From a virus: a DNA stretch of 34,646 nt. Positions 2,326 through 28,142 of this stretch are shown here, piece after piece. Location of the stretch: positions 1 through 34,646 of the IMG/VR virus record IMGVR_UViG_3300036979_000071, one strand, 5' to 3'. Numbering within the stretch: position 1 is the stretch's first letter; each line of letters begins with the position of its first letter. The position numbers were made by a program, and so were the translations under genes. A model generated the notes under the pieces. The model was given only the letters and a program-made list of their open reading frames with translations. It was not told the DNA's origin and did no database searches.

Positions 2326-2355
2326 GCTCTCATCGTACATCTGCATCTGCTGATT

Positions 2356-6990: not shown

Positions 6991-7812
6991 TCATCCCTTC
7001 TGTTCTGCGGGAATCAAATCCCACTGCTGTTTAGTAACCCATCCTGTCATACGGCAAGTCTCGCAGCCCTCGCCGATGCACAGCGGACACGCTTCATGCG
7101 GCAGCGATTGCTTCAATGCAGTCTTGGCATTCTTCAAGTCTGTTGCCACGCGCTGCTTCGGAATGAATGCGCCATGCTCTGTCTGCACTACAACATTCAC
7201 AGCCGCAATCGCATCATCAACAGATGACATAGCAGACTTGATTGCTGACTCAGCCGCCATCATTCGCATGGTCAACGCATCGCCTTCATCAACTGCACCG
7301 TCAGCAACTGCTTCTGAAACTGTTGCAGATGCCTCTGCCTCAAGTTCATCAACAGCATCAGCCTGTTGACGGCACAGGCGCACCATCTCACCGCTGACAG
7401 CGCAATGCTTCCCGATGTCGCGGTTGCTTGCTTCTGTGTTGCAAGCCAATGCCATCAGTACTGCCCTGCGCTTGTCGTTGTTGGAACGGCGCACACCGTG
7501 CTTCAAGTTGGCTGCGGCTGCAAGCCACATCGCATCTTCCCTGCTGCCTTCAATCACTTCACACTTGATTGACTTCCACTTCAGTGACTGTGCTGCTGTC
7601 ACGCGGTGGAAGCCATCGCATAGCCAATACGCCTTCGTATCCCATACAACGATGCACGGCGGCATCTCTGCGCCGTCTTGCATTGCTTCGGCGTATTCAG
7701 CCACCGCATCAGCGGTCATTGCTGCGCGTGGCTGCAACGCCTTGTCCATCTTGATCTTTGCAATCGGCACTTCCTTGATCCGTTGCATTTCTGTATCTGC
7801 CTTCTTCGCCAT
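6991..7812 (-). CDS. Second ParB-like protein with HTH and C-terminal Cys motif
   Basis: The 273-aa product (start MAKKADTE chosen; GGAG precedes it at good spacing) has an N-terminal ParB-type domain: ALQPRAAM, CIVVWDTKAYWLCDGFHRVTAA with the G-x-HR motif, then an alpha-helical HTH-like stretch (NRDIGKHCAVSGEMVRLCRQQ begins near residue 125). An Ala-rich helical region follows. The C-terminus carries CPLC and CETC pairs separated by six residues, probably binding zinc. It resembles ParB-fold DNA-binding proteins of phages. With no ParA partner seen, replication or gene control is more likely than plasmid partition. Confidence 0.82.
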   Translation of the reverse strand: MAKKADTEMQRIKEVPIAKIKMDKALQPRAAMTADAVAEYAEAMQDGAEMPPCIVVWDTKAYWLCDGFHRVTAAQSLKWKSIKCEVIEGSREDAMWLAAAANLKHGVRRSNNDKRRAVLMALACNTEASNRDIGKHCAVSGEMVRLCRQQADAVDELEAEASATVSEAVADGAVDEGDALTMRMMAAESAIKSAMSSVDDAIAAVNVVVQTEHGAFIPKQRVATDLKNAKTALKQSLPHEACPLCIGEGCETCRMTGWVTKQQWDLIPAEQKG

Positions 7813-7831: not shown

Positions 7832-8017
7832 CTACTGAGAGAGAGAGCAACACCCAAGAGCAGGTCTTGAGTGTTGCCAACGAGTGTGCTTCTTCGGTCG
7901 GTCGCTCCGCATCATTATCCATTCTGCTGCAGACAGGCAGTCAACTACGGATGCGTTCGAGTTCGTGCAGATGCACGGGATGAAGTAGGTGTTCATGATC
8001 TTCATCTCTGATGTCAT
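7832..8017 (-). CDS. Possible small hypothetical protein
   Basis: A 61-aa reading frame (MTSEMKIMNTYF...) fills part of the gap between the structured region at 8047-8158 and the ParB-like gene. No domain is recognised; it has a few Cys and a basic C-terminal half. Other starts at 8005 and 7996 are open, and none has a clear ribosome site. Its 3' end runs through the hairpin at 7847-7877. It may not be a gene. Confidence 0.3.
   Translation of the reverse strand: MTSEMKIMNTYFIPCICTNSNASVVDCLSAAEWIMMRSDRPKKHTRWQHSRPALGCCSLSQ
7847..7877 (-). terminator. Hairpin with CU tract ahead of the ParB-like gene
   Basis: On the minus strand GCAACAC and CAAGA pair with TCTTG and GTGTTGC, joined by a T-G wobble: 13 pairs around loop CCTGC. 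It is followed by CTCTCTCTCTC rather than a T run. It lies 34 nt upstream of the ParB-like start. It may be a weak terminator or attenuator, or may shape the leader of that gene. Confidence 0.5.
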
Positions 8018-8046
8018 TGACCCGAACGAGGCGTGGTCATCACGCT

Positions 8047-8158
8047 GACTACCCTCCGCAGAGGTCACGCCTTGTAGTCATAGGCGATAGGTTGAAAGGC
8101 TACGCGATGGTTCCCCACCGCGCAGCCGTGTCATTCGCGTCCGTCGTGGGCGCGAATG
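8047..8158 (-). ncRNA. Structured intergenic region, possible divergent leader element
   Basis: This stretch follows the ERF gene and holds consecutive hairpins on the minus strand. The first has arms CATTCGCG/CGCGAATG. The second has arms GCTGCGCG/CGCGTAGC continuing into GUGG-GGAA-CCAU, a GNRA-type tetraloop. Then CTTTCA is followed by a weak CGCC/GGCG pair, and finally CCTC-TGCG-GAGG inside GACTAC/GTAGTC. The order hairpin, hairpin, TTTCA, hairpin resembles the five-copy element at 12025-14491. Its function is unknown. Confidence 0.5.
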
Positions 8159-8167
8159 GAGGAGGGC

Positions 8168-9939: not shown

Positions 9940-10003
9940 CTGACAACGGTTGGCAGCACGGGTGACAAAGATTGTCACTCAGCCGCCAACCGTTGTCAGT
10001 TGC
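9936..10003. repeat. 19-bp perfect inverted repeat with inner hairpin (operator or origin candidate)
   Basis: GCAACTGACAACGGTTGGC at 9936-9954 is the exact reverse complement of 9985-10003. Inside lies a second perfect palindrome, GTGACAA (9962-9968), AGA, TTGTCAC (9972-9978). It lies in the gap before the HTH gene and downstream of DUF932, with no T run on either side, so it is unlikely to be a simple terminator. An operator, replication origin or recombination site are all possible. Confidence 0.8.
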
Positions 10004-10053
10004 ATTAATGCGATTGATGCTTATGATGCCATCGCTGACTCCTCTCTGTAGCA

Positions 10054-10089
10054 CCGCTGCCTCCGGCATTAAGACACCGGAGGCAGCGG
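10054..10089 (-). terminator. GC-rich 13-bp hairpin after the DUF932 gene
   Basis: CCGCTGCCTCCGG and CCGGAGGCAGCGG form a perfect 13-bp stem around a ten-base loop, starting four bases after the DUF932 stop. There is no T tract on the minus strand, so full Rho-independent termination is uncertain; protection of the mRNA 3' end or Rho-assisted termination would also fit. Confidence 0.55.
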
Positions 10090-10093
10090 CATT

Positions 10094-10939
10094 TCATGAA
10101 CGACTGAACGCAACCGCATCAAGCACACCCGTCAAGCGATTGTGTCGCTTGCTGATGTTGAGCAAGCCCGGTCGGGTCTTCTCAACTTCAGTGATGGCTT
10201 GCTGAAGCCGCCACACAGTTGGCTTCTGCCATGCGTCTCCGGCGCAGAAGTGTCCACCCGGCGCATCGCGGCGTTCAAACTCGTGAATGATGTGCGGCAA
10301 CGCTTGCACATTGAAAGCCCTAGCACGAAGGCAGCGCATCAGCGTGTCATTCAGAATGGTTCCGGGCTTCACCTTCGCATTCTCATCAGCCTTGTCAAAG
10401 TTGAAGCCATCGTAAGCGTCTTCACGCTCTGCCACCTGCCGCATAGTGACACGCAGCCCACCGAGGTTGGTAGCAATCAATCCCGGCAGATCGCGCAGAG
10501 CCCAACGAGTGTGCTTCCGCGCGAACTTGAACTGCTCTTGATCCGAGTGAAGCATCAGGTTGTCGCACACGAACACTCGCGTACCGAGTGCGCCACCTGC
10601 AACGATAGAACGATCGTTGCTGTTGCGAATGCCGAACACGAACTGTCTGCCCTGACTGACTTCATTGCGATACCCGATGTCACCGCCTGTGTTCTCCTTC
10701 AGTGCAATCAAACCGAAGTACCGCAGCCCGTCACCCCACATGGCGTGAACCTCTTCTGTCAGGCAGAATCCCATGTTCGTCAAGCCATCGCGCACTTCCT
10801 GAACGAGGTACGCATGGGGAATCGGGCAATGCGATTCGGTTGCTTCAGGCATCTTCACCGCCTTGACCTCATCCCACGTAACGACATTCGCTCCACAATG
10901 AAGCACCATCCGACTGTCTCCGACTGTAGTAGTACTCAT
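10094..10939 (-). CDS. DUF932 (YfjQ-like) phage protein
   Basis: The 281-aa product (start MSTTTVGDSR, preceded by AGAGGA at good spacing) matches the DUF932 family found in phages and plasmids: a beta-rich middle with FVFGIRNSNDRSIVAGGALGTR, then VFVCDNLM and RKHT. The biochemical role of the family is unknown; members often lie near recombination or replication genes, as here. It is the last gene before the control-like region 9904-10093. Confidence 0.82.
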   Translation of the reverse strand: MSTTTVGDSRMVLHCGANVVTWDEVKAVKMPEATESHCPIPHAYLVQEVRDGLTNMGFCLTEEVHAMWGDGLRYFGLIALKENTGGDIGYRNEVSQGRQFVFGIRNSNDRSIVAGGALGTRVFVCDNLMLHSDQEQFKFARKHTRWALRDLPGLIATNLGGLRVTMRQVAEREDAYDGFNFDKADENAKVKPGTILNDTLMRCLRARAFNVQALPHIIHEFERRDAPGGHFCAGDAWQKPTVWRLQQAITEVEKTRPGLLNISKRHNRLTGVLDAVAFSRS

Positions 10940-10978
10940 GCTGAATCCTCTGCTGCACTTGGCAGCGTTTCGTGTAAC

Positions 10979-11037
10979 CATTCGTGCGGCAACGCGCCGA
11001 CCGAATGAAACAGCGGCGAAGCGTTTCCGCTGCGCCG
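10979..11037 (-). promoter_or_regulatory. Two adjacent hairpins in the DUF932 leader
   Basis: On the minus strand CAGCGG/CCGCTG (11032-11011, extendable by CGGCG/CGCCG) is followed three bases later by CATTCGGTCGGC/GCCGCACGAATG (11007-10979), paired except for a 2x2 internal loop. They lie 40 to 100 nt upstream of the DUF932 start, so they fall in its mRNA leader. TTTCATT joins and enters the second stem, a weak echo of the conserved TTTCATTTC in the five-copy element. Confidence 0.45.
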
Positions 11038-11043
11038 CCGTGA

Positions 11044-11367
11044 TCAAACTTCTTGCAGCAGATCGGCTGCGCCATTCACCCATACATCCTCATGCAGACA
11101 CTGCTCGTCTGCTGTGACAGTGAACACGCTCCTCAGCGACTGATACTCGGCAGTCATGCTGATGCAGGACGAATCCCAATTCGCTTCCCACATTGTTTGC
11201 AGCGTGAGGCAAACAACTTGCAGCGCGTCATCCTGCTGATGCAGCGGTACTGAAGCTTCTTTGCCGATGCCGACCAGGTCGGCTTCAGCAAACAGGGTCT
11301 CATCTTCTTTGCCGTCATGGTGAATGATGAACTTGGCTTCGATGTGGATCACGATGAACTCAATCAT
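11044..11367 (-). CDS. Hypothetical protein
   Basis: The 107-aa product is unrecognised: an N-terminal beta-hairpin-like stretch (MIEFIVIHIEAKFIIHHDGK), acidic middle, soluble. GGAG with six-base spacing precedes the ATG. It overlaps the upstream gene by eight bases. It is unlike its neighbours to the right in not being preceded by a copy of the three-hairpin element. Confidence 0.6.
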   Translation of the reverse strand: MIEFIVIHIEAKFIIHHDGKEDETLFAEADLVGIGKEASVPLHQQDDALQVVCLTLQTMWEANWDSSCISMTAEYQSLRSVFTVTADEQCLHEDVWVNGAADLLQEV

Positions 11368-11572
11368 TGCTGTCTCCTTTCAATAGTTTGGCAAACTTGC
11401 CACGGTCGATGGTCACGCATTCAAGCATCGCTAGTGCTTGCGTTGCGAGTGTAATCCTGCGGCGAACTGAATCACGCACTTCAGGTGATTGATGTGAAGC
11501 ACCCGTTCTTGATGAACGGCGAATCATTGTTTCCAATGTTCGCCGTATGAATTGGATATGGACATCACTCAT
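11360..11572 (-). CDS. Small basic hypothetical protein
   Basis: The 70-aa product (start MSDVHIQFIRRTLE, with AGGG seven bases upstream; MAM six bases earlier is an alternative) is basic and helical, with Arg clusters (IRRTLETMIRRSSR, RDSVRRRIT). It could bind nucleic acid, but no family is recognised. Its start overlaps the end of the preceding gene, so it is coupled to it rather than having its own leader element. Confidence 0.6.
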   Translation of the reverse strand: MSDVHIQFIRRTLETMIRRSSRTGASHQSPEVRDSVRRRITLATQALAMLECVTIDRGKFAKLLKGDSND

Positions 11573-12020
11573 CGCCATGCCCTTCAATCTGCACATCAGC
11601 CATCTCATAGGCTGATTGCTCAATTCCCCACCACACAACCTGTGCGAGTAGGTAGTCATCATTAGTGATGTCATCAACAGGGCTAACCAACATCATCGCA
11701 GCAAGGCGTTCGGTTTCAAACTTGCTGTGATGCTTGCAACGCACGATGTTGTATGCCAATGTGAACATCGAGTCGCCGAACCCTTCAGCGCGATCCTCAA
11801 CCATGTCACGGATAGTGGCTAGAACACCATCCTGCTTGATGAAGTCAATCAGGTCGCGGGTGTATATGAACCCGGGAACGCCACCTTTCGCGCCGTGATT
11901 TGACAGGTCATCAACCTGCTTCATCACATCCTCAACGCCATGCTTCAGTAGCCACGCCTTCAGCGTAATAGCCAAACGAATGTTCGTGATCAGGTGGTCT
12001 GGTAGTCCATGCGATTCCAT
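11565..12020 (-). CDS. Hypothetical protein of the leader-element array (gene 5)
   Basis: The 151-aa product (start MESHGLPDH) is unrecognised, mostly helical and acidic, with a hydrophobic segment (YLLAQVVWWGIEQ) too interrupted for a membrane helix. The start is fixed by comparison: in this array the ATG follows GGATACTG-x-T directly after the third hairpin. The frame is open further upstream, but that would translate the conserved element. Confidence 0.65.
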   Translation of the reverse strand: MESHGLPDHLITNIRLAITLKAWLLKHGVEDVMKQVDDLSNHGAKGGVPGFIYTRDLIDFIKQDGVLATIRDMVEDRAEGFGDSMFTLAYNIVRCKHHSKFETERLAAMMLVSPVDDITNDDYLLAQVVWWGIEQSAYEMADVQIEGHGDE

Positions 12021-12024
12021 ATCA

Positions 12025-12121
12025 GTATCCAATCTGCCGCAGCGCGGCGTAGTGAAATGAAAGCAGCGCGCAAACGATGCGCGCTGCGAATGCTGCCCGG
12101 CACCTTTCGGTGACGGACAGC
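12025..12121 (-). ncRNA. Three-hairpin leader element, copy 1
   Basis: Minus-strand order: hairpin H1 at 12121-12092 (GCTGTCCG/CGGGCAGC with inner CACC-GAAA-GGTG), H2 at 12087-12063 (GCAGCGCGC/GCGCGCTGC), then TTTCATTTCACTAC and H3 at 12048-12036 (GCCGC/GCGGC), then AGATTGGATACTGATATG, where ATG starts gene 5. H2 differs completely in sequence from other copies but pairs perfectly. Confidence 0.85.
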
Positions 12122-12138
12122 CATGGGTGTAACTGATA

Positions 12139-12954
12139 TCAGGCTTCTGCGCCACAGGTGGTGCAGCGCATATCTGCATTCAGCGAATCGTGACCACAGG
12201 CAAGAGCCACAGTTGGCATCGTCTCAAGCGAACGAGCAGCAGGTGCCGGAATGAATGTGTCGCGCTGACCGTGCGGCACTTCATCTACTTGCTCAGCCTT
12301 GATGTGCGGAGCAACGAGCCCTGCCAACACCTTAGCAGCGATTGCAGCGATGAAGGCTTCGTTCTTCATCAGCACTTCTGCAACACCGTCAATGAAACGA
12401 TCCTGAGTTGACAACTCAACTGCGATGTCATCGCAGTCGATTTCAGCGGCGATGTCTGCCATGTGCAACTCCTGTGCGATGGCACGGGTGCCAACAGCAG
12501 CAGCAAGCGTGTCGTAGTCGAACTCAACATGACCTGCAAGATTGCTCATGCTGATGCAATCAGCAAGTTCGTGTAGGTCTACATGCTGTGCAACCTCTGA
12601 AGCCTCCACCTCAACATACTCAGCGAGGCTGCTGAGATCGATCTCTGAGGCGATATCAGAGTCACTCAGGTGTGAAGCTACATCACTCGCATCAACTTCA
12701 ATGTGCTCCGCGATATCCCGTGCTTCGATTTCAATGTGTCCTGCAACTTCAGACGCATCGATCTCCTCTGCAAGTTTGCGGTAGTTGATTTCATCACGCA
12801 GCAATCGGTAGTCAATCTCCTGTGCCACAGGCAGCACCGATGGCGATGCATCATCAGCAATCGGCGTAGCCTCCAAGTTCATCATCGTCTTGATGGCGAT
12901 GAATGAGGTTTCGATGGCGGACAGTTCAGCGATAAGGTTCTTCATAGCGGACAT
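12139..12954 (-). CDS. Acidic tandem-repeat protein with C-terminal zinc-like motif (array gene 4)
   Basis: The 271-aa product (start MSAMKN, six bases before a second ATG) has a helical N-terminus, then from about residue 46 to 180 a run of degenerate 9- or 11-residue repeats of the form (E/D)-I/V-D-x-x-D/E-I/V/L-A-x-x-I/V. Examples are IEIEARDIAEH and VEVEASEVAQH. It ends with CGHDSLN and CTTCG, a probable small zinc ribbon. Similar acidic repeats occur in unassigned phage proteins; the function is not known. An extended or solenoid-like scaffold is a guess from the regular spacing of hydrophobic residues. Confidence 0.75.
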   Translation of the reverse strand: MSAMKNLIAELSAIETSFIAIKTMMNLEATPIADDASPSVLPVAQEIDYRLLRDEINYRKLAEEIDASEVAGHIEIEARDIAEHIEVDASDVASHLSDSDIASEIDLSSLAEYVEVEASEVAQHVDLHELADCISMSNLAGHVEFDYDTLAAAVGTRAIAQELHMADIAAEIDCDDIAVELSTQDRFIDGVAEVLMKNEAFIAAIAAKVLAGLVAPHIKAEQVDEVPHGQRDTFIPAPAARSLETMPTVALACGHDSLNADMRCTTCGAEA

Positions 12955-12958
12955 AGCA

Positions 12959-13055
12959 GTATCCATTCTGCCGCAGCGCGGCGTAGTGAAATGAAAGCCA
13001 CGCATCAACGCGATGCGTGGCGAATGCTGCCCGGCACCTTTCGGTGACGGACAGC
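12959..13055 (-). ncRNA. Three-hairpin leader element, copy 2
   Basis: H1 at 13055-13026 is identical in stem to copy 1; H2 at 13021-12997 is GCCACGCATC/GATGCGTGGC; the TTTCATTTCACTAC linker and H3 at 12982-12970 (GCCGC/GCGGC) follow. GGATACTGCTATG leads into gene 4. Confidence 0.87.
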
Positions 13056-13071
13056 GATGCGATCATGGTGA

Positions 13072-13521
13072 TCACTTATTGCAAGCGAGTGAATCGATGA
13101 ACTGCTGCTCAGTCATCTCTTCAACCTTGACTTCCTTCATCATTGCATTGTGAAGCCGAGCCTGTTCATTCACAATGCACTTCATCACATTGCTGACATA
13201 CTTCGCCCGTGACATCGGTGAAGCATTAGTTGATAGACCGATGTACGGGCGCAGGTCGTTCGGTGTGAACATCGTGTCCTTCGTCTGCCACATTGCAGAT
13301 GAACGCTTCATGTAAGCCTTCTCGCCGTGGATGCGCTGCTCAAAGTTGAGCCTGAAGCACCACTCGCCCAAGTTCTTCTCAGTGATCTCGTTGAATCCGA
13401 GGATCATCGTTGACCATATCAGGCAATGCGGAATCGGCATGATGGAGTAGTTGCCATCAGCATCCTTCGGGCTGAACTTGAGGTCTGAAGCGATTGCGGT
13501 CATGTCGAATGAGAGAGCCAT
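13072..13521 (-). CDS. Hypothetical protein of the leader-element array (gene 3)
   Basis: The 149-aa product (start MALSFDMTAI) is a soluble mixed alpha/beta protein without a recognised domain. It contains WCFRLNFEQRIHG and PNDLRPYIGLSTNASPMSR, a pattern of well-spaced aromatics suggesting a folded enzyme-like or binding domain. The ATG follows the element after GGTTTCACC. An upstream-extended frame would translate the leader and is rejected. Confidence 0.65.
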   Translation of the reverse strand: MALSFDMTAIASDLKFSPKDADGNYSIMPIPHCLIWSTMILGFNEITEKNLGEWCFRLNFEQRIHGEKAYMKRSSAMWQTKDTMFTPNDLRPYIGLSTNASPMSRAKYVSNVMKCIVNEQARLHNAMMKEVKVEEMTEQQFIDSLACNK

Positions 13522-13527
13522 GGTGAA

Positions 13528-13621
13528 ACCAATCTGCCGCATTGCGGCGTAGTGAAATGAAAGCCACACATCAACGCGATGCGTGGCGAATGCTGCACGG
13601 CACCTTCCGGTGACGAGCAGC
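13528..13621 (-). ncRNA. Three-hairpin leader element, copy 3
   Basis: H1 at 13621-13592 (GCTGCTCG/CGTGCAGC with CACC-GGAA-GGTG), H2 at 13587-13563 (GCCACGCATC/GATGTGTGGC, one C-A to T-G style change kept as wobble), TTTCATTTCACTAC and H3 at 13548-13536 (GCCGC/GCGGC). It begins seven bases after the stop of gene 2. Confidence 0.87.
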
Positions 13622-13627
13622 GATGGG

Positions 13628-14002
13628 TTACTTCTTGACTTTGACTGTGAGTGTCTTGCCTGTCCAAACGCAAACATGAAGAGCGTGTTTGAATATTGAT
13701 TCTGCATACGAAAGGCTCTTGCAGATATCGTTCTCTGTAATCACGCCATCTGCGATGTCGATTCGTAAATTCAATAGTTGGTTAGCCAACTCGTTGAGGC
13801 GGCTGACTGCGGTCGGAGTTGTCATGTGATCTTTAGATTTGATCATGTCAGAGACAAGAGAGTTGGTCATCGTCTCAATCTTCTGAACATAGTTGTAGAG
13901 TTCTCGACCTGTGATGTTCTGTTCAGTGACCCGAAAGCGAACGACCTCAAGAGCATCTGAAACGAGTGCAAACTTGCGGCTGTAGTTCTTGTTCATAGCC
14001 AT
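13628..14002 (-). CDS. Hypothetical helical protein of the leader-element array (gene 2)
   Basis: The 124-aa product (start MAMNKNYSRK; the second ATG at 13996 is an alternative) is strongly helical, without recognised motifs, and basic at the end (TLTVKVKK). The middle (NYVQKIETMTNSLVSDMIKS) suggests a helical bundle or coiled coil. The stop is followed by TAACCCATCGCTGC, the same junction as at gene 1, so the element begins at a fixed distance from the stop. Confidence 0.62.
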   Translation of the reverse strand: MAMNKNYSRKFALVSDALEVVRFRVTEQNITGRELYNYVQKIETMTNSLVSDMIKSKDHMTTPTAVSRLNELANQLLNLRIDIADGVITENDICKSLSYAESIFKHALHVCVWTGKTLTVKVKK

Positions 14003-14009
14003 GACGTGA

Positions 14010-14106
14010 ATCCAATCTGCCGATCTTGTCGGCGTTGTGAAATGAAAGCCACACATCAACGCGATGTGTGGTGAATGCTGCCTGACACCTTTCAGTGACA
14101 GGCAGC
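14010..14106 (-). ncRNA. Three-hairpin leader element, copy 4
   Basis: H1 at 14106-14077 (GCTGCCTG/CAGGCAGC with CACT-GAAA-GGTG), H2 at 14072-14048 (CCACACATC/GATGTGTGG), TTTCATTTCACAAC and H3 at 14033-14019 (GCCGA/TCGGC with a five-base loop). H1 and H3 both show paired changes relative to copies 1-3. Confidence 0.87.
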
Positions 14107-14112
14107 GATGGG

Positions 14113-14391
14113 TTACATCTGCGAATCGCGGATCACGCCTTGGATGTACTCCATAAGTTCCACGAGTTCCTTCATCTTCATGTCGTTGAGTTCAACGGTG
14201 ACTTGATGGTCGAGCATTTCGCTGCCATTGAACAGGCTCTTGTGGTCGCTGTATGCATTCTCGATGTCACCTGTGATCTCGCATCGCTTGCACAGGCGCA
14301 GGTCACCTTCACCACTCGTATCCCGTGTCCGCTTGCCACAGCAGCAGCACGTGTAGCAACCACTACCAACCTTGAATGTATTCCTCTTCAT
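14113..14391 (-). CDS. Small zinc-ribbon-like protein of the leader-element array (gene 1)
   Basis: The 92-aa product (start MKRNTFKVG) has CYTCCCCG at 12-19 and CKRC at 34-37, a C-x2-C...C-x2-C arrangement that would bind zinc, followed by an acidic helical tail (MKMKELVELMEYI). It could contact DNA, RNA or protein. It is the first gene after the 0.6-kb non-coding gap and thus the first of the five-gene array. The ATG follows GGATACTGCT, as in copies 1 and 2. Confidence 0.7.
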   Translation of the reverse strand: MKRNTFKVGSGCYTCCCCGKRTRDTSGEGDLRLCKRCEITGDIENAYSDHKSLFNGSEMLDHQVTVELNDMKMKELVELMEYIQGVIRDSQM

Positions 14392-14395
14392 AGCA

Positions 14396-14491
14396 GTATC
14401 CAATCTGCCGCATATGCGGCGTAGTGAAATGAAAGCTACACATCACGCGATGTGTAACGAATACCGTTCGGCACCTTTCGGTGACGAACGG
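14396..14491 (-). ncRNA. Three-hairpin leader element, copy 5
   Basis: H1 at 14491-14464 (CCGTTCG/CGAACGG with CACC-GAAA-GGTG), H2 at 14456-14437 (TACACATC/GATGTGTA), TTTCATTTCACTAC and H3 at 14420-14407 (GCCGCATATGCGGC). The H1 and H2 stems differ from other copies on both sides of the helix yet remain paired. It precedes gene 1 and closes the non-coding gap. Confidence 0.87.
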
Positions 14492-15013
14492 TTGTGTCAT
14501 GTTCGTTGACTCCTGCTCCCGGTAAGCAGTCGTAGTATGTTCGCGTTAGGCTGATGCTGTGTGGTGTTCCTGAATACGCCAAGGATTGTGGGGCGCATGG
14601 TTACAGAGAGATCGCATTCTCTCGTATTCAGTCTGTCACACGGTCTTCACCGCGCTGCTTGTACTTGGCTCATGAACCCTTCGGGTGGTTCACTTCGGCT
14701 CTGCTGCTGATCGTATGTGTTGTATTCGGCGGTTGGTTGCGATTCACATCGAAACCATTCCGAGTCCCGTTCGATCTTGAGTCAGATTGCAGGTCTTAGT
14801 GGATGCCACTCGCTGCTTGATCTGATCCCTGTGTCCGAGTTCATTGCTCAGTCCACATTCTGTTGCATGGTTGCGCGTTACCGTAGTCGCCGCGCTTCCA
14901 CTTGCTTCTTTGCCGTGCCAAGTTGTCAAAGATTCCGACCTGTGAATGATACTTCGGGGGATAGTGTTTATGCAACGCTAAACCGCATGGATTTCCCGCC
15001 CATGTTTCCCGCC
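14492..15013. other. Non-coding gap between late and early modules
   Basis: No reading frame here looks like a real gene on either strand. It holds an interrupted inverted repeat (14570-14631) and a TTGACA-like box on the minus strand near 14932-14927, without a convincing -10 partner. A TGTCAAAGATT string at 14924-14934 resembles sites at 20-30 and 9963-9973. It is a reasonable place for an early promoter or an origin, but neither can be shown. Confidence 0.5.
14570..14631. repeat. Nested inverted repeat in the non-coding gap
   Basis: CTGAATACG (14570-14578) pairs with CGTATTCAG (14623-14631); within it GAGAGA (14606-14611) pairs with TCTCTC (14618-14623). The two stems share one base, so they compete or form a bent structure. 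No tRNA T-arm or anticodon arm is present. Confidence 0.6.
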
Positions 15014-15025
15014 TTATTTGGAGCC

Positions 15026-15112
15026 CTGCCTGTGCGCCCTGTGCGTCTGCCTGTGCGCCCTGTGCGCCCTGTGTGTCTGCCTGTGTGTCGCCCTGTGTGT
15101 CGCCCTGTGAGA
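15026..15112. repeat. Tandem 9/12-bp repeat, in frame after an amber stop
   Basis: Units beginning CTGTG (CTGTGCGCC, CTGTGTGTCGCC and variants) are repeated about eight times on the plus strand, each 9 or 12 bp long. On the minus strand, after the TAG of the zinc-ribbon gene, the same frame stays open to TAA at 15014-15016 and reads S-HRAT-HRAT-HRQT-HRA-HRA-HRQT-HRA-HRQ-GSK. It may be a readthrough tail or simply a repeat. Confidence 0.75.
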
Positions 15113-15544
15113 CTACCAGTGGAATAATGGGCAGGTGGCTGCGGGCATACGACCCTTCACAGTCAACTCAGCGCGCGCGTTCTGTCCGCATCCGCAGCGA
15201 GTGCAGAATCCAATCTGCGGTGATGGGCGCGCATCAAGATGAGGACATGACTTGCAATGATTCATACGCGCATTGAACGCGTCATCATCAAGTGCGCCGT
15301 GAATGATCTGACTTGCTTCTGCTGCCAACCATTGTTTCGCTTTCGCAATCATTGATGGCTGCTCAGGAGCTTCTTCCTTCGGGTCACTTGCTGCAACCAT
15401 GGCATCGAACTCCGATGCAGGAATGTCAATGCGTGTTCCTCGCGTTGCGCGATAGTCTTGCACAATCAACTCGCCGCCGCGCTTGACGAGCAGCGTCCAC
15501 ACGCCGAGTTCAGTAGTGAGCACTACGACCTTCTCAGTATCCAT
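15113..15544 (-). CDS. Zinc-ribbon hypothetical protein
   Basis: The 143-aa product has a beta-rich N-terminal half, an acidic/proline linker (DPKEEAPEQP) and a C-terminal Cys-rich domain: C97 and C100 (CKSC), C114, C117, C119 (CTRCGC) and C138 near the end in PAATCPL. This pattern is a recurrent small zinc-binding tail in phage and environmental bacterial proteins, function unknown. It overlaps the preceding gene by 22 nt and closes the late region. It ends in TAG, followed by an in-frame His/Arg repeat. Confidence 0.7.
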   Translation of the reverse strand: MDTEKVVVLTTELGVWTLLVKRGGELIVQDYRATRGTRIDIPASEFDAMVAASDPKEEAPEQPSMIAKAKQWLAAEASQIIHGALDDDAFNARMNHCKSCPHLDARPSPQIGFCTRCGCGQNARAELTVKGRMPAATCPLFHW

Positions 15545-17097
15545 CTGTATCTATATCCTTTGCCTTGACCTGTTGCTGTTTCAAAGCATCCGTACTTCGG
15601 CTTATCCGGAAAGAAGCAGTTCAAGAAACCGCAAGCAGCGAATCCGTTTCTGATTCCGTAAACGCAATCAGTACCCGGGAAGTGCGTAGCGCAAACCTGT
15701 GCTGCTGATGTTGGAGATTGCTTGCATGACCAATATGAGTATTGAGTTGTATTGCCTGTGTACGCCTGTGTATATCCATTGTGAGGAACATCCCACGCGT
15801 GAACATTGATGATGTAATCGAATGTGCATCCTGCACAAGTGCAGTTCGCATCAGCCAAGACAGGAGGAACGCTGCAATCATTCAGAACAGGTGTCGTTGT
15901 TCCAATCGTTGCTTTCGCGTTCGGCATGAACGCGTCGAATGCACCGCTGAATGGTTGTATGAATGACTCTTCTAGACCTTCAGGTATATACGCTTCGAAG
16001 CCTTGAGTGAACGCGAGATAGTCGCCGTTCCAGTTGTCGTCCATCGAACCGGTTTGCCATGCTGCTGCTCCTCCGAATGTGTACGAAGGTCGTTGTGCGA
16101 CTTGCCATAGTTCCCATGGATCGCCGGGCTTGCGTACAAAGACATTCACTCCTGCCGTTGTCAACGGTGTCTCACTCATTGATTGCACCTGCGATGCAGA
16201 AGACAGACCGATCACTCCACCTGCTGCTCCGAGTCCACCCATACCTGCATTCGCATACGCAAGCGCGTTGATAGCGGTGACTAATCCACCGAGCGTGTAC
16301 GAAGACAAGCCGTATGAGATGATCGTTGTTCCATTCTGTTTGATGATTAGCGAACCACCCGAAACGGCAATCGTCCATGCGCCTGTCTGCCCTGCTGCAA
16401 GTAGTACGGTGAATGCCATGCCATTCAGATAGGTTGCTTGTTGATTGAAGACAACACTCAGACCCGTCTTCGCAGCGTTGCTGCCTGTCGCTGTTTGGCA
16501 ATTCCTACAACGATGTCCGGCAGGAGTGCTCAACACATATTGCTTGTAAATGAATCCTCCGGCAGGTAGTGCATATGTTTCGCGATTCCATCTTATGGAT
16601 GTTGATACGCCGCTGTTTACATACGCTGTGCCGTTCCACCAAAAGACTCCAGCAGTTACGGTCTGCTGAGTAGTTGTTGACTTCGTGAATGTGATTGTCT
16701 CATTGAGGCGAACGAAACCTTCTGCATCGCTCAAGCCTGTGCGCCTGTTCATGTCAAACGCGTAACCGAATGCACCGTTCGCTCCATTGCAACTGCCTTG
16801 CAACAGAGGTCCGTTAGTTTCTGAGTATGAGCAACTCCATTGCAGATCACTCGCGAGCGGATATGTTCCTCCGGGTACAAGCCAACTGTATGTATCAGGC
16901 GATCCCGGTATGCACTCAACTTCTGCTTGTCCGGCTGTATCAGGTCTTGGCGGGCATTCCGAATCTAGAAATGCGTTTCCAACGTATGTCTGTGCGAAAC
17001 CATCGCGCTTCGCTCCTTGAAAGAACACACCGATGGTGATCGTTGTCGGTGTAGGCGGTACTACGTTGCAGCAACACTTAGCGAACTGCGTATACAT
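15523..17097 (-). CDS. Cys-rich virion or tail-associated protein, unassigned
   Basis: The 524-aa product (start MYTQFAKCCCN, preceded by AAGG with six-base spacing; a longer frame would overlap the 39-aa gene) has no recognised domain. It is rich in Gly, Thr, Asn and aromatic residues like beta-structured fibre proteins. Many Cys occur in pairs or clusters (CCCN; CRNC; CTCAGC; CGFLNC), and two segments of similar style, each near a TQxYxGN string, suggest an internal duplication. No signal peptide, lysozyme or peptidase motif is seen. A host-binding or decoration role is possible from its position after the fibre and membrane proteins. Confidence 0.6.
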   Translation of the reverse strand: MYTQFAKCCCNVVPPTPTTITIGVFFQGAKRDGFAQTYVGNAFLDSECPPRPDTAGQAEVECIPGSPDTYSWLVPGGTYPLASDLQWSCSYSETNGPLLQGSCNGANGAFGYAFDMNRRTGLSDAEGFVRLNETITFTKSTTTQQTVTAGVFWWNGTAYVNSGVSTSIRWNRETYALPAGGFIYKQYVLSTPAGHRCRNCQTATGSNAAKTGLSVVFNQQATYLNGMAFTVLLAAGQTGAWTIAVSGGSLIIKQNGTTIISYGLSSYTLGGLVTAINALAYANAGMGGLGAAGGVIGLSSASQVQSMSETPLTTAGVNVFVRKPGDPWELWQVAQRPSYTFGGAAAWQTGSMDDNWNGDYLAFTQGFEAYIPEGLEESFIQPFSGAFDAFMPNAKATIGTTTPVLNDCSVPPVLADANCTCAGCTFDYIINVHAWDVPHNGYTQAYTGNTTQYSYWSCKQSPTSAAQVCATHFPGTDCVYGIRNGFAACGFLNCFFPDKPKYGCFETATGQGKGYRYRWILRRS

Positions 17098-17105
17098 GGC
17101 AAGCC

Positions 17106-17225
17106 TTAAATCTTGCCGCCTCGCTTCGCACACAGCGCCCATCCGCCACCGAAGCCGATTGCGAATGCAAGAGCTGCGAACCAAACCGAACCAAGGAACG
17201 AACTGAAATCAGCGATGAGTGTCAT
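17106..17225 (-). CDS. 39-aa single-span membrane protein (lysis cluster)
   Basis: This short frame starts at ATG 17225-17223, overlapping the previous stop as ATGA, and ends at TAA 17108-17106. The product has a polar start, one hydrophobic segment from about residue 11 to 31 (VWFAALAFAIGFGGG), and a positively charged end (CAKRGGKI), so an N-out/C-in or pinholin-like topology is possible. The overlap, and the good ribosome site for the next gene just past its stop, support it as real. Confidence 0.65.
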   Translation of the reverse strand: MTLIADFSSFLGSVWFAALAFAIGFGGGWALCAKRGGKI

Positions 17226-17719
17226 GGCTTCGCCTTCCGTTGTTTGCTGACACGGCGGAATGCCGCATCAAGTAATGGGTCACTCGCTCTCGCAGCCGCT
17301 ACGAACTCGCGTTCGGATTCCGGTCGCGCAGGGTCAAGCATATCCGCTGCCATCTCTGCTGCTGCTGTCTTCCGCCGTGGAATCCACCCGATGGCAATCC
17401 TGATCATGGTGCCGAGTCCGGTCTGCCACAGAATGACCATCACAGCCACTACGACTGCCGCTACGGCGATCCAAGTCACCATGCCGAGCCAAGCCGGGGT
17501 GCGATCCTCAACGCCGCTCAGGTCAACTGCGATGCCTCCGGCAAGCAGATCGATCCGATTGGCGCGGGTGACTACTTCTTGGTTGCCAATCTTTGTTCCG
17601 TAATCAGACAGCGCAGCAGCCTCAAGCCTGATGGCATTCGTTGATTCAGCGATCCGTTGTGCCGGACTACAGCCCGGAGCGATCAGGATTGATGCGAACA
17701 AGACAAGCAGGTAGATCAT
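17222..17719 (-). CDS. Lipoprotein-like membrane protein, possible spanin or holin partner
   Basis: The 165-aa product begins with a hydrophobic signal ending in IAPGC, a near-canonical lipobox (cleavage before C17), followed by a helical soluble region. There is then a membrane helix at about 79-99 (WIAVAAVVVAVMVIL) and a basic C-terminal part (IPRRKTAAAE, QRKAKP). Phage spanins combine such features, but having both a lipobox and an inner-membrane helix is unusual. It is coupled by ATGA to the neighbours on both sides. Confidence 0.55.
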   Translation of the reverse strand: MIYLLVLFASILIAPGCSPAQRIAESTNAIRLEAAALSDYGTKIGNQEVVTRANRIDLLAGGIAVDLSGVEDRTPAWLGMVTWIAVAAVVVAVMVILWQTGLGTMIRIAIGWIPRRKTAAAEMAADMLDPARPESEREFVAAARASDPLLDAAFRRVSKQRKAKP

Positions 17720-18015
17720 CGCTGCGATTCGATGCGCCCGAGCCGCTCTTCGACAAGCCGAACGCGCTCCGCAATGACCTTGATGCTTGCACTCGCGTCC
17801 GCATTCCTGTCCCGCATCACCGCAATATCGGTGGCAATAGTAGTCAGAAGGCGTGATTGGTTGTCATCCGATTCCGACCGCCGACCGACATAGACGAGCG
17901 CGCCGCAAATCATGCCGATAGTCAATAGCAACTGCGACTTCTCAAGGAGAAGCCGCGTGTGCTTGCTGTTGATACTAATGGCAACGCCTTCGCTGTTCTT
18001 GTCTTCGGTGGTCAT
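17716..18015 (-). CDS. Small membrane-anchored coiled-coil protein (lysis cluster)
   Basis: The 99-aa product has a polar N-terminus, one membrane segment at about 28-45 (QLLLTIGMICGALVYVG) and a helical, heptad-like C-terminal half (IKVIAERVRLVEERLGRI). Hemolysin-XhlA-like and holin-associated phage proteins share this layout. The stop forms ATGA with the lipoprotein-like gene. Confidence 0.6.
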   Translation of the reverse strand: MTTEDKNSEGVAISINSKHTRLLLEKSQLLLTIGMICGALVYVGRRSESDDNQSRLLTTIATDIAVMRDRNADASASIKVIAERVRLVEERLGRIESQR

Positions 18016-18042
18016 GTGTGAAGTGTATTGAAGTGCGCCGGA

Positions 18043-18240
18043 TTACTCCGGAGGAATATCAGCAGGAGGAATGAATCTTGGAGTTGCACCCGCTTCGTAT
18101 GTCCATCCGCCGCCGCATCGTTCACCGTCTGCTAGTTGCAGCAGTTCAGTTCCTTCAGGTGGCTCCCACGGCGCAACGCCATCCCACACAACGACACTCC
18201 AAACGATGTTCGATTGAATGATTGCGTATCTATAAATCAT
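18043..18240 (-). CDS. Small hypothetical protein after the fibre gene
   Basis: The 65-aa product (MIYRYAIIQ) starts at the ATGA overlapping the fibre stop; an ATG nine bases upstream is the alternative. It is compact and Trp/Pro-rich: WDGVAPWEPPEG, LLQLADGERCGGGWTYE, then a Pro-rich end. Similar short proteins follow tail-fibre genes in many phages and may assist or cap fibres, but no role is established. Confidence 0.65.
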   Translation of the reverse strand: MIYRYAIIQSNIVWSVVVWDGVAPWEPPEGTELLQLADGERCGGGWTYEAGATPRFIPPADIPPE

Positions 18241-19538
18241 GTGTAGCAAACCGTAGTGATGATTGCGAATCCGTTTCCACCGTTTCCACCGTTTGCGCCG
18301 AGCGCAAGTGATCCTGATCGTCCCGCTCCACCACCGCCGGAGCCACGAATACCCAATCCACCTACGCCACCTACTTGACTAGCAGCATTCGTTCCACCAC
18401 CACCACCCGCGCCGGAGCCAAAGCCATACGCACTTATTGTTCCGGTTCCACCCGCGCCTTGTGGTGTTGCTCCTCCTGCTGCTCCACCTGCTGCACCCGG
18501 AATACCACCCGCAGCACCAAAATTTAAGTAAGTCCAAGTATTTGCCAATCCACCCTGTGCGCCATTATTTGATCCTGTTGAACCACCCGCGCCACCACCC
18601 GCGCCTAAGCCACCAACTTTACCGCCCACTCCGACCGTTCCACCTGCGCCCCAAAGGTTAGTACTTGATCCTGCCGAGAATTGACTATTTCTATATAGAC
18701 ACCCGGTGGAAGGAATAGTTCCTATCCCACCACCCAATGCGATGAACCTATCAAACGTAGTAGCCGCTCCATATGTTGGTGCTGTAGCCGTAGAACCAAT
18801 ACCACCATTTCCACCTGCGCCAATAGTTACGGATTCGGTCGCACTCAATGTGCTTGCATCTACAGATATCACAAACGGTTCACCCGCTGCTCCGCCAATT
18901 CCTCCGGCAGCAGTAGTTGAATACATACCTCCTGACCCGCCACCTGACATCACGATAGTTGTAGTCACGGCTCCCGCAGGTTTCGTCCATGTGCCGCTAC
19001 TGTCGAAGGTTTGCACATCCACAGTCTGAGTAAATCGCGCAGCAGGAACCCAACCGATAGCACTCCACGCAATACATTGACCTACAGCCGCGCTCTGTTG
19101 CGATAGATTGGACGGCGCAACTTGCAGAGGGAAATACGATTCGCCATCGAAGCCTATGAATTGACCGACCGATGCAAACTGAACGTCTAGTTCCCAAGGC
19201 GCGACCACGTTATATGCGGGAACCCACATTCCTTCCGATGAATCCCACTTGATGTACATATTGTCGAAAGCACCCGACTGTTCAAGCGATTCAAGGGGCA
19301 GCGTTTGAAATGCCGCAGCCCATGCAGTTCCATTCCATTGCAGCACTTGTCCGGTAGACGCGCCGCCTTGCAGAATGCGTGATGGAAGCGGCGTAGTGAG
19401 ATTGAATACTGATCCATCCTGCAATCGCGTGAACGCGTTGCCGTCTGCCGTGTTCACAGCGATTTCGCCGAACTGAAGTTCACCCGCTGTAGGTGCTGCT
19501 GTTGGCGTTGCGCTGCGCTTATGTTGATACACCGACAT
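18237..19538 (-). CDS. Glycine-rich tail fibre protein
   Basis: The 433-aa product starts with a phage-fibre adaptor pattern (GELQFGEIAVNTADG, residues ~19-33), then LQWNGTAW repeats, then FDSSGTWTKPAG at about 180. A long Gly/Ala/Ser-rich C-terminal half follows (GGIGG, GAGGGGG, GGNGGNG), ending in GFAIITTVCYT. This layout belongs to fibres whose polyglycine domains present variable loops to the host receptor. It is the most probable receptor-binding component. Confidence 0.85.
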   Translation of the reverse strand: MSVYQHKRSATPTAAPTAGELQFGEIAVNTADGNAFTRLQDGSVFNLTTPLPSRILQGGASTGQVLQWNGTAWAAAFQTLPLESLEQSGAFDNMYIKWDSSEGMWVPAYNVVAPWELDVQFASVGQFIGFDGESYFPLQVAPSNLSQQSAAVGQCIAWSAIGWVPAARFTQTVDVQTFDSSGTWTKPAGAVTTTIVMSGGGSGGMYSTTAAGGIGGAAGEPFVISVDASTLSATESVTIGAGGNGGIGSTATAPTYGAATTFDRFIALGGGIGTIPSTGCLYRNSQFSAGSSTNLWGAGGTVGVGGKVGGLGAGGGAGGSTGSNNGAQGGLANTWTYLNFGAAGGIPGAAGGAAGGATPQGAGGTGTISAYGFGSGAGGGGGTNAASQVGGVGGLGIRGSGGGGAGRSGSLALGANGGNGGNGFAIITTVCYT

Positions 19539-20071
19539 CAGTACGATCCTCCATCGATTGTTTGCGGCGGTTCATTAGCAGGGCAAGCACCCGTGATCGG
19601 ATTCGGTGCGCTGAATTGAAACGATGACACACCTGCGCTGTCACGAACGATTGACATTTCAACTACCGCGCCGTTTGGCACGGCAACGAAACTGAATCCG
19701 GCAATCGGTAACGCTCCCGCGCTATCAACGGTAAATCCGTATGCGAGTGCAGATGTGTTCCCTGCTTCAAGCGTATTGATTGCAGCCTTGCCGCCGTTCG
19801 TTGCACTTGTCAATCCGCTTGCGACCGCTGCGAAGTTAAGCGTGCCTGTCGTGCGTCTAACTTGCGTCCATGCGTATGTCCATCGCACATTGCTGCCATC
19901 CTTCGTTGATGCTGTGATGACGGCATTGAAAGTCTTGCGACTGCCGCCGTCAGCAGCCTTGTTGACTTGTGCTTCAAATCCTCCGGTTGGATCAGCAACG
20001 GCAACGATGTCTGCCCATGCTGATGGAGTGAGTGCGCCAAGACCTTTCGAGATTGTTTGCTTGATCGTCAT
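19538..20071 (-). CDS. Unassigned tail protein
   Basis: The 177-aa product has no recognised domain. It is beta-rich, with Thr, Ser and Ala dominating and few charged residues, like tail decoration or baseplate domains. Two one- to four-base overlaps with its neighbours place it firmly between the 262-aa protein and the fibre, where distal tail components are expected. Confidence 0.65.
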   Translation of the reverse strand: MTIKQTISKGLGALTPSAWADIVAVADPTGGFEAQVNKAADGGSRKTFNAVITASTKDGSNVRWTYAWTQVRRTTGTLNFAAVASGLTSATNGGKAAINTLEAGNTSALAYGFTVDSAGALPIAGFSFVAVPNGAVVEMSIVRDSAGVSSFQFSAPNPITGACPANEPPQTIDGGSY

Positions 20072-20856
20072 GCGACTGACAATCCTAGATCACTGAGAAG
20101 ATTGGTGGTAGTAGGAAACGGCTGACGCGCGTACACAGTCTTGGCTGTTGCGTTTCCGTTGCCGTCCGGAGCATTCAACATCGGCTGACCATCGACATCA
20201 CGGACGCACACTTGTCGCAGATGCTTCGCTCCGTCATACAAGAACCGATATTGAATCTCGTACTGATTGACGCCTGTTCGCCGCGATGATGCGCCAACGA
20301 ACAGCACATAGTCAATCCCTGCGCCGAGGAATGTAGCGTTGTTGCGCTTGCCGATGGCACCAAGGATCGCGGTTGCGTTGTTGGTTGTGGATACATTCGT
20401 GACCGTCATCTCTTGCTGATTGAGCAGAGTGCTGACAGGTTCACCACAACAATCAACAGAAACTCCTCCGATGTCCTGATTCGGTGGATTGCCGATAGGC
20501 GTTGGGAATGTCGCTCCCGTGCGCCACACATCAACGAACTGCGTTGATGTTGTCAGATCAATCGAAACGAATGCAGTCGCAGCATTGTCGCCATCGGTTG
20601 CACTCCATTCCCAGTTCACGGTGCCGCGCCACCACTTCTGCAGTCCTTCAGGCTCACGCTCAAGCGATCGACTCTTCACCTTCAGAGTTTTGCCATTGAC
20701 CGTTTCGGTGTTTCCGAGTGCAACCATCGCAGTCAATGCTTGCGCGTAGGTCACAGCAACATTCGTGTCATCGTTGATGAGGTAGTTGCGATTGATTGAA
20801 GATGACTCAAGACCATCGTTCACGCTCTCGGATGTTAGAACTGCTTGTACCGCCAT
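20068..20856 (-). CDS. Unassigned distal-tail protein
   Basis: The 262-aa product starts at the base where the tape measure stop ends. It looks like a beta-sandwich, with VNWEWSATDGDN, YEIQYRFLYDGAKHLRQ and a Cys pair (VDCCGE). In siphoviruses this position usually holds the distal tail protein or minor tail protein M/L, but no family match can be stated. It is coupled to the 177-aa gene by ATGA. Confidence 0.65.
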   Translation of the reverse strand: MAVQAVLTSESVNDGLESSSINRNYLINDDTNVAVTYAQALTAMVALGNTETVNGKTLKVKSRSLEREPEGLQKWWRGTVNWEWSATDGDNAATAFVSIDLTTSTQFVDVWRTGATFPTPIGNPPNQDIGGVSVDCCGEPVSTLLNQQEMTVTNVSTTNNATAILGAIGKRNNATFLGAGIDYVLFVGASSRRTGVNQYEIQYRFLYDGAKHLRQVCVRDVDGQPMLNAPDGNGNATAKTVYARQPFPTTTNLLSDLGLSVA

Positions 20857-23800
20857 TAGGTAAGTACTCCTGCGAACGCAGCCGTGTTGGATGCGATCGC
20901 CTTCAGGTATGTATTCGATTCTTTCAGCAGCACAGTTGTCTCGTCAGTCTGCCGCGCCATGCCCGTTGACACAGGCAGCGTTGAAGTAGTCGCTCCTGCT
21001 GCCATCAATCCGGTACCGCCTGTCGGGCTGATTGCTGCTGTGTTGTTTGCAATGGATGCCAAGAGCGTTGTCTGCTTGTCGCCCTGCGCCACCAACTGCT
21101 TGTCAATGCTGTCTGCACCCATGGAGCCTTGAGTCTTGAATGAACCGAGAGCAGTATCAATGGAGTCAACGAATCCCTGTGCTTGCTGTTCGCTCTTCGC
21201 TGCTGCTTCACCCGCTGCGCCTGACCCTGCTTGGATCTCTGCGAACATCGCGAGTGCTTCAGCGACCTGCGTTGTGTCTGCTCCTGCTGCTTCTAACTTC
21301 TTCTGCAGCATTCCTGATTCGCCGAGCTTCATCGCTTCCAACTGATCAGCCAAGTCCTGCATCGTGTCCTTGACCGTCATCGCATTGTCGGTCTTCTTCT
21401 TCTCAGCATCGATCTTGTCTTCGATGGCAATCGTGTCATTGACCGCCTTCTCAAGAGCGTCACCCGCAAGACCGATGTTCGCCAACTGATTCTTCAGCAA
21501 CTCGCGTTCATTGCCTTGCGCCTCAAGCAACCGATCATTCAGGTTCTTGAAATGGCTTTCCATCGATGCATCGATGTTTGCCGTCTGCATTGTTTGCAGC
21601 AGCGCCATCGCTTGCTTTATTTCCTCGTCACCCGCGTGGAGTTTCTTCATCTTGATCTGAAGCAGTTCCGCCTCTGACTTGCCCATTTCCTCGTTCTTTG
21701 AAAGCAGATCATCCATGACTCCCTTGATAGCAGTCTGATCGGCATCCTTCGCCCGTGCGCGCGCGAGTTCTTCCTGCTTCGCAACCAACTTCGTGGCACT
21801 CTCAACCGATGCGCCCGATGCGACAAGACCCGCAACCACTTCAGCAGTTGTCTGCCCCGTGATATCGAGGATCTGCTTGTCGATCTCAGCGATGTCCTTC
21901 ATGATGCCATGCTCTGCTTCCAATGCTTTCAGTTTCGCTTGCAATGTTTCGACATCCTTGACCTTCGTTGGATCAATCCCCTTCATCTGATTGATCTGCA
22001 TCTGATCCTCGCCGATGGAAAGCGAATCAATCTTGGCTTGCAGCCCACTCAGAATAGAGTTGGCTTCCTTGAGTGACTTCTCGCTCAACTTGGCTTCGAT
22101 GCTGATTGGATTGCCTTCCATCTCGCGCTTCGTTGATTCCATGCCCTTCGTCAGCGATGCCATCATTGCCATTGCTGCATCAGGCTTCACAGCATCAACG
22201 CTTCGCTGTAGTGCTTCGCCAACGTCATCACCTGCGTCTGATGCTGATTGCTTCATGCCTTCAAATGCAAGAGCAGCGGCTTCAGCCATATGACTTCCCA
22301 ACTCTGATGTCGTTCCGGTGAGGAAGTCGAATGCTTTGACAAGCCATTCAGCAATCTTCAATATGCCGTAGCACGCTGCCATCACTCCTGTATTGAGAAC
22401 TTCTGCGAGTGCTTGAACGACATTCCACAACGCCATGAAAGCGTTGACTACGAATGCGATGAGGTCATACACAACAGCAAGCACAACCGAAACCGATTGG
22501 AACGCGCTGACGAAGCCCGAAGTATCCACCGTGAACATAGTGAAGATGCTGTCTGCGAGCGATTCAAGTACAGGCGCGAATGAATGTGCAAGCATCGTCA
22601 TCATGTTGCTGAACGAAGCACCCGCTGCGTCAACCTTGTCATTGACTGCGGCGAGATCTTGAACGACATTACTTGGGATGACGAGTTTGGCTGCGCGATC
22701 AGATGCCTCTTTGAATGATTCAGCAGTTGCATTGACGGCAGCAGCAAGACCGAGTCCGCCCTTGCCGAACATATCGCGCAGCGCAGCCATGCGCTCTCTG
22801 TGGCTTCCGAGTTCGCGGATCTTGCCGATGGTTGCTTGCAATGCCTCATCAGGAGACTTGTTTGCCAACTGCTCGTATGTGATTCCAAGGCGAGAGATCT
22901 TGTCTCGCGCTTCTTCGCTGCCTTGCGCTGCTTGATCCAATGTAATGCCGAGTCGCTGCGATGCCATCACTGCTGCGCCCGATGACGCGCCGAGATCCTT
23001 GTATGTGTGTTCAAGTTTCTGATACGCCTCGACACTCATTCCGGCTGATGTTGCTGTCTCGCTCAACGCATCCATCGCGGCTGCTTGGCTGCGTGTCAAT
23101 GCAAGCAGACCAACGACAGCACCAACAGCGGCAACACCAACTCCGGTCAGCAGCCCGGCAGCAGTACCGAGAGGCATACCGAAGATCTTGAACGCCTTCG
23201 CTGATTCACTGATGGCACCTGTTATGTCTGTGACCTTTGACTTCGCTGCTGCTGCTGCAGATTGAAATCCACTGAGGCTCGGCAACTTCAATGCGCCTTG
23301 ACCCTTGCTCAGATCAATGCCCATCTTGCCCAACTTGCCGCGAGTTGCTTCCTTGTCGCGGTTCGATTTCTGCACCGCTGCTAATGCTGCGTGTGCTTTC
23401 GTAGTTGTCTGAACCGCCGCCGTGACGTTCTCTTGAGCCTTCGTCAGTTCCTTGGTTGCGAGTTCAGCGACCTTGATCTTGTTTGCAGCAGACAAGATCT
23501 GACCCGTATACGGATCACGACCCTTCGCAGCCTTCGCAGCAAACAACTGCGCTCCTGCCAACTTCTTCTCTGCATCCGTTTGCTTGATGATCGCTTCGCC
23601 GATCTTCTTGCGAAGTGCTGAAGTGTCTTCGATCTTTAGCGCGGCGACTGCCTTGTTCGGGTCAATGCCCTGACTCGCAAGCATCGAACGCGCCATACCA
23701 ATGTTCTTGCGCGCGCCCTTCGCGCTTGCAAGTGCTTGGTCTGCTGCCTTGCTTGCTGTGATGGCTTCCGCCAACTTCTTGGTCTGCTCTGCTGCCGCCT

Positions 23801-24035: not shown

Positions 24036-24037
24036 GA

Positions 24038-24720: not shown

Positions 24721-24751
24721 AGTGGCAGGGTAACAATGATTGGCAGATCAA

Positions 24752-25189: not shown

Positions 25190-25201
25190 ATGGTTCCTTG
25201 A

Positions 25202-25600: not shown

Positions 25601-25633
25601 GGTGTCAGTTCCTTATGTGTATTTCAATCGCTC

Positions 25634-26023: not shown

Positions 26024-26035
26024 AGTGAGAGTTCC

Positions 26036-28077: not shown

Positions 28078-28092
28078 GGTGGCTCCTTATCA

Positions 28093-28124: not shown

Positions 28125-28142
28125 CGTTGAGAGGATCAGAAG

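Follow-up and report, generated by a model that had tools for sequence, protein, structure and literature searches.

The minus strand of the 34,646-base virus record G000, analyzed here over its whole length and called the window, carries the same structured segment in front of one gene after another, and the question raised by this locus is what such a repeated element does and whether it acts as DNA, in transcription, or in translation. An earlier note, made from the letters alone, had described five minus-strand copies placed before genes; we could recover all five (c1 to c5), with boundaries agreeing within a few nucleotides, but a sixth and diverged copy (c6) had been overlooked. Each of c1 to c5 is about 98 nt long and presents, in this order, a first hairpin (H1), a second hairpin (H2), a 14-nt single strand, a third hairpin (H3), and then the start codon, the boundaries being set from the base before CAT to GATTGG. 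The copies, with the parts of c2 and c6, map as follows.

14400 to 14497, minus strand: c5, three-hairpin leader, preceding the gene at 14113 to 14391
14012 to 14111, minus strand: c4, three-hairpin leader, preceding the gene at 13628 to 14002
13529 to 13626, minus strand: c3, three-hairpin leader with a GGAA tetraloop, preceding the gene at 13072 to 13521
12963 to 13060, minus strand: c2, three-hairpin leader with the highest score among the copies, preceding the gene at 12139 to 12954
12029 to 12126, minus strand: c1, three-hairpin leader, preceding the gene at 11565 to 12020
10945 to 11046, minus strand: c6, diverged leader, preceding the DUF932-like gene at 10094 to 10939
13026 to 13055, minus strand: H1 of c2 (8 bp, a 1x1 U.C mismatch, and 4 bp, with a GAAA tetraloop)
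12997 to 13021, minus strand: H2 of c2 (10 bp, loop GCGUU)
12983 to 12996, minus strand: unpaired strand of c2, UUUCAUUUCACUAC
12970 to 12982, minus strand: H3 of c2, GCCGC-GCU-GCGGC
12963 to 12969, minus strand: AGAAUGG of c2, at the Shine-Dalgarno position and adjoining H3
11010 to 11041, minus strand: H1 of c6 (9 bp, a 1x1 C.U mismatch, and 4 bp, with a GAAA tetraloop)
10952 to 10966, minus strand: H3 of c6, GCUGC-CAAGU-GCAGC, followed by AGAGGA

The three-hairpin fold of c1 to c5 has minimum free energy (MFE) z-scores of -4.7 to -5.5, and none of 200 dinucleotide shuffles was equally good. Compensatory changes occur among these copies at 12 of the 27 pairs, with 98.5% of the cells paired; no shuffle out of 500 attained such figures, and sliding of the pairing partners abolishes the covariation signal. 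A covariance model built from c1 to c5 (R1), a search that the earlier note had proposed, supported the covariation and recovered homologues in related IMG/VR phages as well as c6, which was found in an unfiltered run with 35 bits (E value, 4.8e-8). In c6, the H2 loop GCGUU is followed by an 11-nt unpaired strand, H3, AGAGGA, and the ATG at 10939, and the mismatch below the H1 cap is of the same 1x1 pyrimidine type as in the other copies. The covariation and the coupling to gene starts thus bear out the claim of a real structured RNA element, while some details of the first description needed correction. In particular, the H1 cap CACC-GAAA-GGTG occurs in c1, c2, and c5, and c3 has CACC-GGAA-GGTG, as described, but c4 has CACT-GAAA-GGTG; the GATTGG given for every copy after H3 is GAATGG in c2; and the placement between a stop and the next start does not hold for c5, which has no close upstream stop and ends a 721-nt noncoding stretch (14392 to 15112).

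All the genes called in the window lie on the minus strand. A terminase-to-tail block, including the terminase large subunit, occupies 15113 to 34527; after the 721-nt stretch, which has no called gene, come small genes and a replication/recombination block (RecE-like exonuclease, ERF, helicase, RusA, and toprim), and the leader copies stand at the head of this second part of the genome. Judging from the block layout, the leader-bearing small genes are probably early genes. They are the following.

14113 to 14391, minus strand: Cys-rich gene of 92 amino acids behind c5, with a weak match to phrog_3633, of unknown function
13628 to 14002, minus strand: gene of 124 amino acids behind c4, without a family match
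13072 to 13521, minus strand: MSLNWN-family gene of 149 amino acids behind c3, whose relatives carry the leader before it too
12139 to 12954, minus strand: repeat protein of 271 amino acids behind c2, with DIAxxID-like repeats
11565 to 12020, minus strand: DUF7222 gene of 151 amino acids behind c1
10094 to 10939, minus strand: DUF932-like gene behind c6, probably starting at the internal ATG at 10939

For the last of these genes, the listed open reading frame (10094 to 11083) spans the c6 element. The ATG at 10939 is likely the real start, since it agrees with the start positions of the orthologues; DUF932 itself was detected in the orthologue of a relative and not in the window protein. Other features of the same genome are recorded here in their own right. 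Short imperfect tandem repeats resembling CAGGGCGCACAGGCAGACGCA lie at 15020 to 15110, on the border of the two gene blocks, and a gene for a TET/JBP-type oxygenase (PF12851; 858 to 1733, minus strand) raises the possibility that the phage DNA contains modified bases. In the 310-nt gap before a ParB-like gene, two stable hairpins followed by TTTCAACC (8072 to 8167, minus strand) resemble H1 and H2 of the leader but have no clear H3 and start codon, and at 9979 to 10093 (minus strand) one tall hairpin of about 17 bp precedes AGAGAGGAG and a very short reading frame.

The comparison was extended to 37 related viral loci obtained via TerL and to further loci obtained via the neighboring MSLNWN-family gene; for the latter, the window protein encoded behind c3 found no relatives as a single query, and a protein alignment used as the query succeeded. 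In these loci, R1 gave 45 matches corresponding to 36 distinct rows, over which 24 of the 27 pairs are compensated, 97.7% of the cells are paired, and 227 cells are doubly changed, none of 500 shuffles being as high, although the rows are related and not independent, so that shuffle counts are not to be read as probabilities. Also in this set, the signal collapses with slid partners. Many of the relatives are contig fragments, and the copy numbers per phage are therefore minimums. An additional 37 loci, mostly retrieved with a DNA pattern, gave matches with E values of up to 0.05 in L138, L145, L092, and L094, and the more distant phages L095 and L106 share the layout, the H3 of L106 (GCCCC-ACA-GGGGC) preceding AGAAATTGGAGA. 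Three hits were set aside as chance or probable chance matches: one in L153 (E value, 0.029); one at L081:5131, where H3 does not align and no start codon follows closely; and an exact match to the pattern TTTCATTTCACWACGCCG in the AT-rich 150-kb contig L006, where matching hairpins were not seen around the site. A BLAST search of one copy against cultured phages gave no match, and a genome scan with TerL yielded one short contig of a Rhodobacteraceae metagenome-assembled genome, too weak a basis for naming a host. Repeated leaders of other kinds were also noticed. In L092, which has one window-like copy at 1441 to 1540, a different repeated family at 1506 to 3037 consists of a large hairpin with CGTCACTGGACG and CGGAGACC before the start, and in L091 (4256 to 7577) repeated small hairpins, TCTAGACTCTAGA, stand shortly before AAAGGA and start codons.

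The wobble pairs of the core stems, read on the gene strand, comprise 30 G.U against 10 A.C, an excess that rests on related copies and a structure-fitted alignment and that moderately favors RNA of the gene strand; comparison of the MFE of the gene strand with that of its complement did not separate the strands. This pattern bears on the hypothesis that the hairpins act as DNA, either as recombination repeats by which a gene is swapped together with its leader or as a DNA-binding site. The gene order is in fact variable, the repeat-protein gene lying before the MSLNWN gene in one relative (G002) and after it in another (G003), and the leader preceding each of these genes in either phage. However, the single orientation relative to the gene, the fixed distance from the start codon, and the attached Shine-Dalgarno sequence argue, together with the wobble pattern, against a DNA-level role, which we hold to be highly improbable.

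The position of the element is strictly defined. All 34 complete rows, a set without a match truncated at the end of its contig and another that is probably false, end 4 to 10 nt ahead of a start codon (ATG in 33 rows and GTG in 1), as does c6, and in 29 of the 34 the preceding stop codon lies between 5 nt inside the element and 12 nt before it. H3 was found in 35 of 35 copies, and most relatives have a purine-rich Shine-Dalgarno sequence (AGGAG, AAGGAG, AGAAGGA, AGCAAGGAG, or similar) adjoining it. The pattern is weak in the window phage because the Shine-Dalgarno sequences of c1 to c5 are poor (AGATTGG or AGAATGG, with a best match of 3 to 4 nt). As regards an RNA thermometer or another leader that would sequester the Shine-Dalgarno sequence in a hairpin, H3 stops directly before that sequence and excludes it, and the 9 nt behind H3 are unpaired with a mean probability of only 0.62. 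The strand between H2 and H3, of 8 to 16 nt, varies in sequence between phages and contains 7.3% G, whereas G makes up 31.5% of the sense strand of these loci.

The earlier note had offered three roles, namely, setting the expression of each gene, protein binding, and a processed small RNA. Since every complete copy lies 4 to 10 nt before a start codon and the Shine-Dalgarno sequence directly follows H3 in most relatives, the first is favored. We infer that the element acts as RNA, is used by the ribosome, and has its main effect on translation initiation. More specifically, we see about an even chance that it is a cis-acting structured mRNA leader governing translation initiation at each early gene. 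It is possible to hypothesize that, among the small and probably early genes that form a block in a group of uncultured tailed phages, each would have one leader filling the stop-to-start gap within a polycistronic message; that the rigid hairpins H1 and H2 would isolate the gene from upstream translation; that the G-poor, A/C/U-rich strand of 8 to 16 nt between H2 and H3 would serve as a single-stranded standby (landing) site for the 30S subunit; and that, with the short H3 abutting the Shine-Dalgarno sequence, the ribosome would bind de novo at each gene.

Could the hairpins act in transcription instead? H2 with TTTCATTTCA might stop or pause transcription as an attenuator or terminator, perhaps in combination with antitermination, and the region from 10900 to 15150 does contain 12 terminator-like sites, the H2 of c1 to c5 included, compared with 3.1 in shuffles. 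However, the T-rich tail is not conserved, H2 being followed in relatives by ACTCACTACATCAAC, TTTACCAAGAC, or TGTTCCTTGAAT, and sigma-70-like promoter matches in the region show no excess (3 versus 3.5 expected), and such a function appears very unlikely. The same promoter count led us to reject a promoter at each copy, as did the GATACT found before the start in c1, c2, and c5, which is not kept in c3, c4, and most relatives.

Known RNA families offered no identity for the element. With Rfam 15, a comparison that the earlier note had suggested, no match reached the gathering threshold in the window or, for the element, in seven related loci; the best subthreshold overlap with a copy was Pseudomon-groES (18.8 bits versus a gathering threshold of 50; E value, 2.4). 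Neither a known Rfam family nor a lack of covariation, either of which the earlier note would have taken as refuting its claim, was thus observed. No riboswitch-type long invariant core occurs across the phages, and a self-cleaving ribozyme was rejected, no long conserved core being visible. The sole Rfam matches in the related loci were tRNAs and type II hammerheads (RF02276), of which L104 has three above threshold (7209 to 7271, 7547 to 7609, and 7998 to 8060) and L099 has one (3459 to 3519); both phages also bear repeated hairpin leaders before genes. The occurrence of these ribozymes near repeated leaders of a distantly related phage suggests RNA cleavage between genes in such phages. It is consistent with the element being a processing or stability signal, with cleavage by nucleases in or close to the hairpins giving each gene a protected 5' end of its own, and so are the tall hairpins that occupy intercistronic gaps within a co-oriented gene run. 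Processing, however, would not need the strict coupling of H3 to the Shine-Dalgarno sequence and the start codon, and we regard this explanation as unlikely.

The leaders precede the same gene families (MSLNWN, repeat protein, DUF7222, and DUF932-like) across phages. Copies resemble each other by phage more than by gene: the mean identity is 79% within a phage, 65% when leaders of the same gene are compared between lineages, and 64% when the genes differ. In the tree, c1 to c5 of the window cluster (90/99), the copies of G013 form one group (98/96) and those of G029 another (100/100), and c6 falls with all the G013 copies and with the leaders of the DUF932-like genes in G002 and G003 (97/96); overall, grouping by phage requires 11 label changes versus 19.1 after shuffling, none of 200 shuffles being as low. 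Because of this grouping and these identities, most window copies look homogenized within the phage, and the DUF932-like leader looks as if it retained an older identity. The source of homogenization can be a shared partner or recombination.

A shared partner would fit an RNA operator, i.e., a site in each copy bound by a phage or host protein or by a small RNA that represses or activates the leader-bearing genes jointly. RNA operators that cover initiation regions are known in phages, T4 gp43 being an example (PMC3014915); in c1 to c5 the unpaired strand and the loops are nearly invariant while the stems change by compensation; and clustering by phage would be expected if each set tracked its own partner. 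On the other hand, recombination or recent duplication would equally explain the similarity within a phage, the unpaired strand is not constant across phages, and no candidate for the binding protein was identified, so that we consider an operator possible but rather doubtful, although it and the processing or stability signal are the chief alternatives to a translational leader. Returning to the leader acting in translation, a bolder version, to which we give little credence, is that it constitutes a self-contained and transplantable ribosome-recruiting module, with a phage-encoded partner coordinating the translation of the early regulon and a coevolved version in each lineage.

Structured leaders in bacteria and phages are mostly known one gene at a time, while here a single covariation-backed fold recurs ahead of several genes in each genome (six in the window) and in several phage lineages. 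Should the leader adjust translation or mRNA stability separately for each gene, it would represent a compact regulatory part showing how small phages tune expression within one transcript, and its natural variants are numerous enough for the design of direct reporter tests. A description of the element was not found in our literature search, which covered part of the literature, with few of the subscription journals. The statement that no phage leader with this layout had been described needs qualification in view of the Start-Associated Sequences and Extended SAS (SAS/ESAS) of Cluster K mycobacteriophages, repeats that hold the same position (PMC3203893) and are the closest known system. The SAS is a 13-bp sequence and the ESAS a 17-bp inverted-repeat pair, for which the authors saw little support for RNA pairing and favored DNA-protein binding (PMC3203893). 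Like the leader, they are multicopy, found in the nonstructural half, mostly in one orientation, and located in larger intergenic gaps a few nucleotides before start codons, with a Shine-Dalgarno-like core and lineage-specific versions. The leader differs in its three covarying hairpins (24 of 27 pairs), and the 13-bp SAS, GGGATAGGAGCCC, had no match in the window with up to 2 mismatches.

As for possible mechanisms, modeling of standby sites has shown that the accessible surface of a hairpin with single strands on both sides sets the initiation rate (PMC3936740). Judged from sequence alone, the leader resembles such a module in lying at the start codon, in having a Shine-Dalgarno sequence behind H3, and in the G-poor strand that precedes H3. 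It shows the layout of a single strand, a hairpin, and a single strand before the Shine-Dalgarno sequence, even if the downstream strand, between H3 and the Shine-Dalgarno sequence, is very short; standby modules, however, were defined on designed and single-gene leaders and not on a repeated conserved family (PMC3936740). Finally, the T4 gene 43 operator likewise places a hairpin upstream of the initiation region, where it is recognized in the mRNA, but it serves one gene autoregulated by its own product (PMC3014915), whereas the leader described here precedes six genes of different families.
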